A DNA stretch of 43,127 nucleotides from Burkholderiaceae bacterium (GTDB taxonomy: Bacteria; Pseudomonadota; Gammaproteobacteria; Burkholderiales; Burkholderiaceae_B): NCBI GenBank assembly GCA_007116135.1, contig SKIZ01000123.1, positions 1-43,127 of the forward strand. The letters run 5' to 3'. Made by a program: the position numbers and the translations under genes. A model generated the notes under the pieces. It was not told where the DNA came from. It worked only from the letters and a program-made list of their open reading frames with translations, and searched no databases. Positions within the stretch are counted from its first letter, which is position 1; each line of letters starts with the position of its first letter. Shown piece by piece: positions 1,880 through 7,074 of this stretch.

Positions 1880-2671
1880 ATGTCGAGCCCGCATGAAATA
1901 AAGCTTTTTTTAGCAAAACTTCACCTTCTGGCGCAACAGGATCCGGCACCAGGCTCGGTTGCGTTGTCGATTGATAACCTGCCCTGTGGCCATGTCAGCC
2001 CGGGTGCCTACGCAGTCATTGCTCGAGGCTGGCCGCAACTGGTCTTAGCCGACAGGATTGAGTTGGGCTCAGGCCCCGATCTAACCGAGCGTCTCGAGCC
2101 AGTTGCTCGGGCTATCTTTGAGGCGGGTTGTGCCGGACGATGGCGCGGTGAGCCGCTCGATTTGTGGTGTGGTGACAACGCTGTCGGTGCGATCGAGCGC
2201 GGTGTTGTGCGGTCACTGGGCCTATTGACCCGCGCTGTGCATTTGAATGCATGGTCAGATGCGGGTCATTTATGGGTGGCCCGTCGCGCGCTCGATAAAG
2301 CAACTGACCCCGGCCTGTGGGACACCCTGGTGGGCGGCTTGGTGGGTTACGGCGAGACAGACGACTTGGCCCTAGAGCGCGAGAGCTTTGAAGAGGCCGG
2401 TCTGAGTGTTGCGCACATGGCCGCGCGCGAACCCCTCAAAAGCATCTTTCGCATGCGCCGCCGGGTGTCAGAGGGTTATCAGTTTGAGGAGGTGCTGACG
2501 GCTGATTGCGTGTTGGATGCGCAGGTGGTGCCGAAAAATCAGGACGGTGAAGTGATGCAAATTAGCTGCTTGCCGGCAACGCAAGTTGCCGCGATGCTGC
2601 TCGATGATCTTTTCACCGTTGAGGCAGGCATTGTTATTGCCCAGAGCTTGTTGGCGCGCTGGCCCGACTGA
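1880..2671 (+). CDS. Nudix hydrolase with N-terminal DUF4743-like region
   Basis: Nudix box GLVGYGETDDLALERESFEEAGL (GX5EX7REXXEEXGU); ORF track starts at TTG 1865, ATG at 1880 more likely. Confidence 0.85.
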   Translation: MSSPHEIKLFLAKLHLLAQQDPAPGSVALSIDNLPCGHVSPGAYAVIARGWPQLVLADRIELGSGPDLTERLEPVARAIFEAGCAGRWRGEPLDLWCGDNAVGAIERGVVRSLGLLTRAVHLNAWSDAGHLWVARRALDKATDPGLWDTLVGGLVGYGETDDLALERESFEEAGLSVAHMAAREPLKSIFRMRRRVSEGYQFEEVLTADCVLDAQVVPKNQDGEVMQISCLPATQVAAMLLDDLFTVEAGIVIAQSLLARWPD

Positions 2672-5162
2672 CCGCCTCAGCATTTCCGACTTGAAGGGCG
2701 TGGTGTCTTTGCTTGGCAACCACTTCAATGGCTTGGCGCAATTGAGCATCTTTTTCCAACAGCACTTTGAAGTCTCTTGCCGTTAACTCAAGCAGCCGCG
2801 TATAACCTAGCGAGCGAACTTCGACGTCTGGCGTGGTCTCGTCAATTAGCAATAGCTCACCAAAAAACTCGCCCGACCCAAGCTCGACGTGTGTGGCGTC
2901 GGGCAACAGCATTGATACTGCGCCCGAGGCAACAAAATAAAGAGCCGGCGTTGTCTTGCCTGGGCCTTGAATCAGCTGACCGGGCAGTGCCAGACGACTA
3001 CGAAGCTTTTGCGTTAACCGAGCGAGGATCTCATCGGGCAAATCAGCTAGCAAAGGCACCTTGTGCACAAGCGTACTTGGCGAGAGCTCGATATCGATGG
3101 GCGGTGGCTTTTCAAGAAACGCCCAGCGTTCATCGAGCTGGGCCAGCAGCGAATCGTAGACCTCAGGACTGATGATCGATTCCTCAAGCATTTTGCGATA
3201 ACGGCTGCGCTCGAGCGTGCGCGCAAGCCGCCCCAAATAACTCTGCTCGAGCCATTCTGCATAGTGAGGATACTGTAGCCGCAGTGCCTGCATGTTGTCT
3301 TCGATGCGCGCTAGCCGTTTACGCAAACCATCTTCAATGGCTAGCGCCGTTTCGTCACCTAGCATCGGTTGAATATGTTTTGCCGTGAAGGCGATTAACC
3401 GACGTGTTACCCAGCGCCAGCCAACGAGCTCGACAAACCGCTGACCAAGCTCGCGTCCAAGCCAGCCATGAAAGCCAAAGACTCGTTGCAGACGCATGAC
3501 GATCTTAAAGCGAGCCGAGTAACGCAGCGCGCGCCGGATCGATTTATCAAACCCGGCCATGCCGTCGACTTTGACATCGTCCTCCATGCGCTCGGAAATC
3601 GATAACAGCCGCTCGGCTGTGCGCCGGTCAAAGCCTTGTTCGCCCAACCCAACCAGGATAAATTCACTTTGGCGTTGCGCCAAGACCGACAGCCCAAGAC
3701 GCAGGCGGTCACCCGGTTCAAACTGCTCAATGTGACGGTCCGTGATGTTCTCGATACTGCCCTCGAAAACCTGACTGATTCTTTGACGAGCCTGGCGACT
3801 GATTCGTTCATCTAGTGCGATGCGATCGGTCTCGGCCTGTAAGTCGTTGACCGTCACAACCACGGCCTGATTTCGCATGGCTTGTTCAAGAGGAGAAAGC
3901 GTATTTAGATCAAGCAAGCGGATAAGCGGGCGCAAAGTCATCCCGTTTAGCAACAAGGTGGCCAACACAAAGCCTGTCACGCCCACAGCGATAAAGTTGC
4001 TGATCTCATCTGACAGCATCTCGTGTTCAGTGACTGCCAAGGCAAGCGCCAAGGACAGTGCGCCGCGCAGCCCACCCCAGCAAATGACTGCTTTATAGCG
4101 CTGGTCGACTTGTGTGCCTGCGGTGGCTGTGACCAGCGGTAGCAACCCATAGACGGTGATCGCACGCGCCAGCAGGGCTGCCAGCATTGCCATAATGACC
4201 ACCAGAAGGTCATGCCAGCTCGCGTGCGCCAGCATTCGCGGAATCGTCAGTGCGGCAAACAAGAAGATGAGCGAGGTGGCCAGAAACCCGAATTGCCGCC
4301 ACGATTGCGCGAGCGCATACGATGTCGTTTGCGTCATCCGGGTGCGCCCAACCGAGGAAACGACAAGTCCGGCGACCACCGTAGACACGACGCCGGATAA
4401 GCCCAGAAAATGTTCCGGAATGATGTAGGCCAGGTAGGCCGTGGCAATGGTCAGCGAGATTTCGGCAGTCGGCCACCCGCGCAAAGCGGGTAATGCGACA
4501 CAAGCCATGCGACCAATGACGTACCCGCTGATGGCACCACCAATGAGCAGCACCAAGAAACTGCCTGCTACGCCACCGATACTAAAGGTGCCAGAGGACG
4601 TATGCGAGGCCAGGCCAATCAGAACGCTAAACAGAGCAATGGCGGCGGCGTCATTGAGCAGACTTTCGCCCTCAACAATCGTGGTTAGCCGCTTGGGCGC
4701 ACCGACTTCTTTGAAAATGCTGACAACGGCGGCCGGGTCGGTGGTGGCGATGATTGCGCCAAGCAGCAAACAGACCGCGAGCCCATAGCCTGAAATCAAT
4801 GAGACACCCAGACCCACGAAGGCGGTGCAGATGACTACCGCGATAACGGCTAAAAGCAAGATAGGGCCCAGATCGTTGATCAAGCCACGCACATTGGTGT
4901 TTAGAGCCGTCTCAAATAGCAATATCGGCAAAAAAATCACCAAAATCGTCTCGGACGGTATTTCAAAGGCTTGTAAGCTCTCCAAGGCATCACCGAGCCA
5001 ACCTGGAGCCCAGTCGTGGACATGGCTGAGATAACCGAGGACACTGCCTGCCAGTAGCAACAAAAGGGTCGAAGGAATGCGCATTGCACTTGCCAAGGGT
5101 GACAAGAAGCAAATCAGGACTAAGAGCCCTGCTAGAGAGAAGACGATTAGATCGACGGTCAT
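2634..5162 (-). CDS. CPA1-family Na+/H+ antiporter with C-terminal cyclic-nucleotide-binding-like domain
   Basis: 842 aa; multi-TM N-terminus with 'GESLLNDAAAIALF' and 'CWGGLRGALSLALAL' antiporter motifs; C-terminus 'PGQLIQGPGKTTPALYFVASGAVSMLL...GSGEFFGELLLIDE' resembles a CNMP-binding fold. Confidence 0.9.
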   Translation of the reverse strand: MTVDLIVFSLAGLLVLICFLSPLASAMRIPSTLLLLLAGSVLGYLSHVHDWAPGWLGDALESLQAFEIPSETILVIFLPILLFETALNTNVRGLINDLGPILLLAVIAVVICTAFVGLGVSLISGYGLAVCLLLGAIIATTDPAAVVSIFKEVGAPKRLTTIVEGESLLNDAAAIALFSVLIGLASHTSSGTFSIGGVAGSFLVLLIGGAISGYVIGRMACVALPALRGWPTAEISLTIATAYLAYIIPEHFLGLSGVVSTVVAGLVVSSVGRTRMTQTTSYALAQSWRQFGFLATSLIFLFAALTIPRMLAHASWHDLLVVIMAMLAALLARAITVYGLLPLVTATAGTQVDQRYKAVICWGGLRGALSLALALAVTEHEMLSDEISNFIAVGVTGFVLATLLLNGMTLRPLIRLLDLNTLSPLEQAMRNQAVVVTVNDLQAETDRIALDERISRQARQRISQVFEGSIENITDRHIEQFEPGDRLRLGLSVLAQRQSEFILVGLGEQGFDRRTAERLLSISERMEDDVKVDGMAGFDKSIRRALRYSARFKIVMRLQRVFGFHGWLGRELGQRFVELVGWRWVTRRLIAFTAKHIQPMLGDETALAIEDGLRKRLARIEDNMQALRLQYPHYAEWLEQSYLGRLARTLERSRYRKMLEESIISPEVYDSLLAQLDERWAFLEKPPPIDIELSPSTLVHKVPLLADLPDEILARLTQKLRSRLALPGQLIQGPGKTTPALYFVASGAVSMLLPDATHVELGSGEFFGELLLIDETTPDVEVRSLGYTRLLELTARDFKVLLEKDAQLRQAIEVVAKQRHHALQVGNAEAVSRASAPTSSGQ

Positions 5163-5229: not shown

Positions 5230-6120
5230 TCACGCCGGCGCGAGATGGGTGCGCATCTTTTTCATGGCCGCGACTTCAATCTGTCGAACCCTTTCGGCTG
5301 ACACCCCGAACTCTTTGGCCAGGTCGTGCAAGGTCGCACCGCCGTCGTCGCTAAGCCACCGCGCCTGGACAATTCGGCGTGAGCGCTCATCGAGTGTGGC
5401 TAGCGCCTCATTTAAGCCGGCGCCTTGCTGATGAGCCTGATCTTGCTGATCCAGCATTTCAGTTGGGTCGTATTGCCCCTGGTCTGACAAGAAGTCAATG
5501 GGACTAAAACCATCTTCGTCCTCGGCGCTGCCTTGTAGCGAGAACTCACGGCCTGACATGCGTACTTCCATCTCGCGCACGTCCTTCGATTTGACAGACA
5601 GTTCGCTGGCGATCTGGTCGACTGCCGCAGTGTCGAGGCTGGCGCCATCGGGTCGTAGGCGGCGCAAGTTAAAAAACAACTTGCGTTGGGCTTTGGTTGT
5701 CGCAACCTTGACCAAGCGCCAGTTGCGAATGATGAATTCATGGATCTCTGCCTTGATCCAGTGCACGGCAAAAGACACTAGGCGCACGCCGCGCTCGGGG
5801 TCAAACCGCTTGACGGCCTTCATAAGCCCGATATTGCCTTCTTGAATCAGGTCCGCATGGGCCAGCCCATAGCCAAGGTACTGGCGCGCAATGGAGACGA
5901 CTAGACGCAGGTGCGATTCGATAAGCTGCCTAGCGGCTTCGAGGTCATTTTTCTGCTGCAAGCGCTGCGCTAACTCGTGCTCTTGGTCGGCGCTCAAAAC
6001 CGGCAGTCGATTGACCGCGCCAATGTAAGCTTCAATCGAGCCCAGCGCACCGGGGTTCGCGATAGCCGTCGAAAGGGCGCTCGGCGAAGGGGTCAACTCT
6101 GTAGAAACGGCTGTTAGCAT
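5230..6120 (-). CDS. rpoH: RNA polymerase sigma-32 factor RpoH
   Basis: sigma-70 family with 'QYLGYGLAHADLIQEGNIGLMKAVKRFDPERGVRLVSFAVHWIKAEIHEFIIRNWRLVKVATTKAQRKLFFNLRRL' (RpoH box). ORF track starts at 6147; the ATG at 6120 has an AGGAG upstream. Confidence 0.95.
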   Translation of the reverse strand: MLTAVSTELTPSPSALSTAIANPGALGSIEAYIGAVNRLPVLSADQEHELAQRLQQKNDLEAARQLIESHLRLVVSIARQYLGYGLAHADLIQEGNIGLMKAVKRFDPERGVRLVSFAVHWIKAEIHEFIIRNWRLVKVATTKAQRKLFFNLRRLRPDGASLDTAAVDQIASELSVKSKDVREMEVRMSGREFSLQGSAEDEDGFSPIDFLSDQGQYDPTEMLDQQDQAHQQGAGLNEALATLDERSRRIVQARWLSDDGGATLHDLAKEFGVSAERVRQIEVAAMKKMRTHLAPA

Positions 6121-6190
6121 AGATCGGATGGCTCCTGTTAGCGACATCGTACGGTTTTGATTCGGGTCAAAGGAGAACTTCAGTGAAATA

Positions 6191-6217
6191 TTAGCACTCT
6201 CGAGTAGTGAGTGCTAA
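6191..6217. promoter_or_regulatory. CIRCE element (HrcA operator)
   Basis: TTAGCACTC-N9-GAGTGCTAA, exact match to the CIRCE consensus, upstream of rpoH. Confidence 0.95.
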
Positions 6218-6245
6218 TAAGACCGATGGTCTATAGGGAAGTTCC
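6218..6245 (-). promoter_or_regulatory. Candidate sigma-E-type promoter of rpoH
   Basis: Minus strand reads GGAACTT-N16-TCTTA, similar to the enterobacterial sigma-E consensus GGAACTT-N16/17-TCnnA; CIRCE begins at the next base. Confidence 0.5.
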
Positions 6246-6330: not shown

Positions 6331-7074
6331 ATGCGATTGCCTCGTCTTTACGCCCCCTATGAAGTTCAACTGATCGAAGTGCGGTTTGCTGACTGCGTCG
6401 AACAGGCGTGGTCAAAGAGAGATGGGCCGCTGATGCTTGACCAGGTGTCGCGCTGGCTTGGTCAACAGGCGTCGAGTCACGAGTTAGCCTTGCATGCATG
6501 GGCTCTGACACCGCGGCGCTTGGTTTTGTTGGCAACGCCTGGCCAGCGCGACGCGAGCTCACGCGTGGTGCAGTCAGTCGGGCGTCGACTCGGCGCTTTG
6601 CTGCGCTCTGGTAGTGTGTTTGCCAACCGATTCAAGAGCACTTTGGTTGACGCAGACTGGGTGCTGCGCGCCCAAGCTTGGGTGGAGTCGGGTCCCGTTT
6701 TGGACGGCTACGCTCCCCGTGCGCTGAGTTGGCGGTGGTCCTCAGCGGTCACACATGTCGGACAGATCGACCCTAAACCGCGTGATTTAGGAGTCGCGTT
6801 GATTGATCACTCGCGTTACTGGGCCTGTGGCAACACGCCCTTTGACCGCCAGGCGTATTACCTCAGCTTACTTGACACTGGCTTGTCGGCATCTGACAGC
6901 CGTCAAATAGAGGCATCTATCGCAGGGCAATGGGCCCTTGGTGACCAGGCTTATTTGCAGCGGATGAGCAAGGTGGCTAACCGGCGGGCGACTGCCGGCC
7001 GTCGAGGCCGCCCAAGAAAAGTGCCCGAGCAAATCGACGGAAACGATGATCCGTCCCCAATTAATCAGAGTTGA
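6331..7074 (+). CDS. Degenerate IS200-like / REP-associated tyrosine transposase (RAYT) family protein, probably catalytically inactive
   Basis: Family-like segments 'RFKSTLVDADWVLRAQAWVESGPV', 'LSWRWSSAVTHVG', 'DHSRYWACGNTPFDRQAYYLSLL', 'GQWALGDQAYLQRMSKVANRRATAGRRGRPRK'; the HUH position reads TPRRLVLL and the catalytic Tyr position appears to be Trp. Confidence 0.75.
   Translation: MRLPRLYAPYEVQLIEVRFADCVEQAWSKRDGPLMLDQVSRWLGQQASSHELALHAWALTPRRLVLLATPGQRDASSRVVQSVGRRLGALLRSGSVFANRFKSTLVDADWVLRAQAWVESGPVLDGYAPRALSWRWSSAVTHVGQIDPKPRDLGVALIDHSRYWACGNTPFDRQAYYLSLLDTGLSASDSRQIEASIAGQWALGDQAYLQRMSKVANRRATAGRRGRPRKVPEQIDGNDDPSPINQS

Follow-up and report, generated by a model that had tools for sequence, protein, structure and literature searches.

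The rpoH gene of the window (the whole stretch of 43,127 nucleotides analysed here) is probably controlled by a composite promoter–operator, at which HrcA bound to CIRCE would cover two overlapping promoters, one of the sigma-E type and one a sigma-70 extended −10 promoter. The elements concerned are as follows; positions are those of the window unless a contig is named.

5230–6120, minus strand: rpoH coding sequence; ATG 6120 is the likely start, and the open frame reaches 6147
6179–6182, minus strand: predicted sigma-70 start region, placed from spacing only
6188–6196, minus strand: predicted sigma-70 extended −10 TGCTAATAT, formed by the right arm of CIRCE and the TAT that follows it; TGnTAnnnT in 103/104 rpoH loci
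6191–6217, no strand assigned: perfect CIRCE operator (0 mismatches), the predicted HrcA binding site; present at 104/108 usable rpoH loci
6211–6213, minus strand: region of the predicted sigma-E start, within the left arm of CIRCE, placed from spacing only
6218–6222, minus strand: sigma-E-type −10 TCTTA, an exact match that reaches the edge of CIRCE, as in the class A register
6239–6245, minus strand: sigma-E-type −35 GGAACTT; GGAAC kept in 7/7 same-genus rpoH loci
Contig C72 of the source genome (L001), 1501–1527: groES CIRCE, adjoined by a sigma-32-type promoter, CTTGAA ... ATCCTTATAA

The operator and the sigma-E motif upstream of rpoH

The source genome is a 2.07 Mb draft, 79% complete. 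Its rpoH gene (TIGR02392, 398 bits; cut-off 323) is located on the minus strand, downstream of the CIRCE/sigma-E block. The start codon is probably ATG 6120, not 6147, since the Shine–Dalgarno-like ACAGGAGC is positioned ten bases upstream of ATG 6120 and this spacing is matched in a same-genus relative. A divergent open reading frame of 247 residues (6331–7074, plus strand), without a Pfam or NCBIfam match, has the rpoH upstream region in common with rpoH; downstream, rpoH is adjoined by a gene for a sodium/proton antiporter with a C-terminal cyclic-nucleotide-binding domain (2634–5162, minus strand).

The initial annotation had reported an exact CIRCE, TTAGCACTC-N9-GAGTGCTAA, at 6191–6217 and, on the minus strand at 6245–6218, GGAACTT-N16-TCTTA, with the −10 ending on the base next to the operator. 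All of this is borne out: CIRCE has no mismatches, the sigma-E-type motif is exact, and its −10 occupies 6222–6218, directly adjacent to CIRCE, which begins at 6217. The geometry would place the sigma-E start inside the operator. CIRCE is the sole site with three or fewer mismatches in the window (0.01 expected from shuffles), and the exact sigma-E motif has a uniform expectation of 0.005 in the same stretch. There are two perfect CIRCEs in the source genome, at rpoH and upstream of groES. The genome encodes both HrcA (PF01628, 227 bits) and RpoE (TIGR02939, 292 bits), the latter followed by an open reading frame that by eye is RseA-like; the presence of both regulators had been a proposed check of the annotation. 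Had hrcA been absent, or GGAACTT poorly conserved among close relatives, this would, by its own account, have spoken against it; neither is the case, since hrcA is present and all seven same-genus rpoH loci found carry CIRCE together with GGAAC-T/C/A at −28 to −40, a co-conservation which also extends far beyond the genus.

CIRCE was found upstream of rpoH at 104 of 108 usable loci, window included (80 named loci, picked by similarity to the RpoH of the window, and 28 from graded relatives), a mostly betaproteobacterial collection that contains related, hence non-independent, sequences and in which some species may occur in both sets. The hrcA gene is present in 11/11 of the CIRCE-bearing genomes tested, and is absent in two of the four genomes without CIRCE at rpoH. 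The other two (L025 and L076) keep hrcA, which counts against the composite model; both have a sigma-E-like motif near rpoH. The CIRCE variant upstream of rpoH in genome L244, TTAGCAGTC-N9-GACTGCTAA, is changed symmetrically in both arms, suggesting that the HrcA of this lineage may have an altered specificity.

The sigma-E-like motif was scanned for with hand-set weights. At a combined −35/−10 score of at least 15.5, the 55 nt preceding CIRCE contain 50 matches, compared with 0.9 predicted from the flanking sequence, whilst the same scan of the opposite strand gave 3 over the whole 550 nt. As the TC supplied by CIRCE could flatter the −10 score, the −35 was also scanned by itself; 86 matches fell between −62 and −8 relative to CIRCE, where the flanking sequence would predict 12. 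Judged by these counts, the pairing of CIRCE with a sigma-E-like motif at rpoH is no accident.

The sigma-E motif at rpoH tracks possession of rpoE across genomes. An RpoE gene is present in 53/56 genomes with the motif (a count that takes in the window's own genome and one RpoE gene split between contigs) and in 10/21 without it (p = 1e-5), the two RpoE searches having slightly different cut-offs. Counting against the composite model are the three motif-bearing genomes without an RpoE match, all of them MAGs and perhaps incomplete, and the 10 genomes with rpoE and no recognised sigma-E motif at rpoH. Four genomes (L019, L067, L072 and L037) have neither an RpoE match over the cut-off nor the sigma-E motif, but their rpoH loci retain both CIRCE and the extended −10. 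L080, a MAG labelled Bordetella parapertussis, also has no RpoE over the cut-off; its RpoH is 58% identical to that of the window, and the label is probably wrong.

Independent support comes from B. bronchiseptica, whose SigE drives transcription in vitro from the promoter region of rpoH, there named fam (PMC3490749). When placed on a Bordetella relative, the primers of that study bracket the sigma-E/CIRCE block (1 and 5 mismatches); in this relative, TGAACTT-N16-TCGAA occupies the same −28 register as the motif of the window. HrcA and CIRCE, on the other hand, are unmentioned in PMC3490749.

A predicted extended −10 formed by the CIRCE right arm and its tail

The initial annotation missed a further feature of the operator. 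The CIRCE right arm and the bases following it spell TGCTAAnAT, a sigma-70-type extended −10, and in the window this sequence (TGCTAATAT) has the top sigma-70 score in the region. The tail of the rpoH CIRCE reads nAT or nCT, with its T in 103/104 loci and the following positions varying freely. The T at the would-be position −12 is invariant (104/104), whereas its counterpart in the left arm is variable (13 loci). A −35-like TTAGCA in the left arm (6217–6212) matches at only 4/6 positions with a spacer of 18, its sequence being dictated by CIRCE itself, which counts against the composite model; a −35 is not essential for extended −10 promoters. The extended −10 persists at rpoH loci where the sigma-E motif is missing, and likewise in genomes that lack rpoE; it is therefore separate from the sigma-E promoter.

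The CIRCEs upstream of groES in related genomes provide a contrast. Only 1/32 has the tail T, so the tail is dispensable for CIRCE; there is no sigma-E −35 peak, and the slot is filled by CTTGAA-type sigma-32 promoters. In the source genome too, a sigma-32-type promoter at groES occupies the slot held at rpoH by the sigma-E promoter. The rpoH arrangement thus resembles HrcA/CIRCE control of groESL in Proteobacteria in its operator, its genome and a −10 adjoining the left edge of CIRCE, but differs in that groES has a sigma-32-type promoter and no nAT tail, and rpoH a sigma-E promoter and the tail.

These observations bear on three other readings of the region. The strength of the sigma-E motif and its co-conservation with CIRCE would fit a reading in which the sigma-E promoter alone is real, HrcA makes of it an AND gate, and the nAT tail has some other role; we consider this unlikely, as TGnTAnnnT is near-invariant even where the sigma-E motif or rpoE is missing, is absent from the groES CIRCEs, and multiple start sites are described for C. 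metallidurans rpoH (PMC7563307). The opposite possibility, that CIRCE is a true HrcA operator on an internal sigma-70 promoter and the GGAACTT block is unused by sigma-E in this organism, would suit those lineages in which CIRCE and the extended −10 persist where no sigma-E motif is present. It is very improbable for the window, where GGAACTT is exact, conserved in the genus and of a type that tracks rpoE across genomes, and given the activity of SigE on the Bordetella rpoH region (PMC3490749). Likewise very improbable is the idea that the tail, which adjoins the operator and is strongly conserved, is an extended HrcA recognition sequence and no promoter element, since groES operators lack it, it is one-sided, and the T of the −10 never varies in the right arm but does so in the left.

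Other forms of control were also considered for rpoH. By eye there is no CTTGAA/CCCCAT pair of the kind expected for sigma-32 autoregulation, and groES has one. An RNA thermometer was rejected, the rpoH leader folding no better than shuffles (z +1.8) and matching no Rfam family. No conventional sigma-70 promoter elsewhere in the leader scores near the one embedded in the operator.

Two registers and their spread in the class

The sigma-E motif and CIRCE occur in two registers that differ between lineages. In class A (the window, Alcaligenaceae and Burkholderiaceae), the −35 begins mainly 28–31 nt before CIRCE, and the −10 extends to the CIRCE edge or stops a few bases short of it. Class B comprises Rhodocyclales, Nitrosomonadales and others; its −35 begins 16–17 nt before CIRCE, and the predicted sigma-E −10 must therefore be composed of the TC that closes the left arm of CIRCE and three spacer bases ending in A. 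At class B loci selected by the −35 alone, the third spacer base is A in 29/34, compared with 7/36 at class A loci and 2/32 in groES CIRCEs; in a separate class-wide sample, it is A at 13/13 class B loci.

A first composite pattern, applied at the level of the order, was found in only 15/399 genomes, because it left out the class B register. The class B composite (a fixed 46 bp with 27 specified bases, up to 3 mismatches allowed) was present in 87/232 genomes across families of the Gammaproteobacteria as defined by GTDB, with no match for a reversed-pattern control; 29 of the 30 loci fetched are upstream of rpoH. In a sample of 160 genomes from the phylum it was found in four, all within the class and all upstream of rpoH, and not outside the Gammaproteobacteria (GTDB). 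As the composite is spread through the class, upstream of rpoH, the arrangement in the window is the Burkholderiales variant of a class-wide one and not particular to the source genome.

Each half of this arrangement is already known, as E. coli K-12 has a sigma-E promoter at rpoH and a CIRCE has been predicted at rpoH of Geobacter sulfurreducens (PMC545781). In Geobacter a perfect CIRCE likewise lies upstream of rpoH, but the phylum is a different one and the passages of PMC545781 consulted describe no overlapping sigma-E or sigma-70 element. Dual control of rpoH by HrcA and sigma-E was not found in the open literature on HrcA, CIRCE and rpoH, as judged mainly from titles and abstracts. In the open literature searched, there is likewise no description of an operator interlocked with both a sigma-E promoter and an extended −10, of two registers for such an arrangement, or of its occurrence throughout the class.

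In E. coli, rpoH is fed by several promoters, including the sigma-E-dependent P3 and neighbouring sigma-70 promoters. The sequence upstream of rpoH in K-12 includes TGAACTT-N16-TCTGA; no CIRCE was found in this region, and a search of 14 control genomes for HrcA gave no E. coli match. The two organisms are therefore alike in having a sigma-E promoter directly upstream of rpoH, and unlike in that the sigma-E-type and the predicted sigma-70 promoter of the window are interlocked with an operator which is missing there in E. coli K-12.

Proposed control of rpoH and its significance

In other bacteria, the activity of HrcA depends on free GroEL. At the composite promoter–operator proposed for rpoH, HrcA would bind CIRCE and thereby cover both promoters, that is the sigma-E promoter, with a −10 adjoining CIRCE and a start expected within the left arm, and the sigma-70 extended −10 promoter, which would be formed from the right arm. 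Once unfolded protein ties up GroEL, HrcA would release CIRCE, and the housekeeping polymerase could then make rpoH mRNA; under envelope stress, sigma-E polymerase would supply additional rpoH mRNA. As HrcA would lie over both promoters, the logic is probably 'not HrcA, and (sigma-70 or sigma-E)', with no obligatory envelope stress. The earlier interpretation thus holds as regards hrcA, rpoE and the co-conservation of the two motifs, but its proposal that rpoH expression depends on envelope stress and release from HrcA together is not supported, because the extended −10 predicts an HrcA-covered sigma-70 start that would function without sigma-E; a strict AND gate is conceivable for the sigma-E branch only.

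In the E. coli model of the heat-shock response, sigma-32 is controlled mainly via its translation, activity and stability. On balance, we favour the view that a single element, roughly 46 bp long and conserved throughout the Gammaproteobacteria (GTDB, including the former Betaproteobacteria), carries an HrcA operator, a sigma-E promoter and a sigma-70 extended −10 in the same bases, and that this represents a widespread, perhaps ancestral, form of rpoH control from which E. coli-type bacteria have lost the operator. If so, many HrcA-bearing relatives would gain a transcriptional layer, in which chaperonin capacity, acting via HrcA, gates what envelope stress and the housekeeping polymerase each contribute to transcription of the sigma-32 gene. 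GroEL, sigma-E and sigma-32 would then be joined by one short DNA element, which yields base-exact predictions for cultured species.
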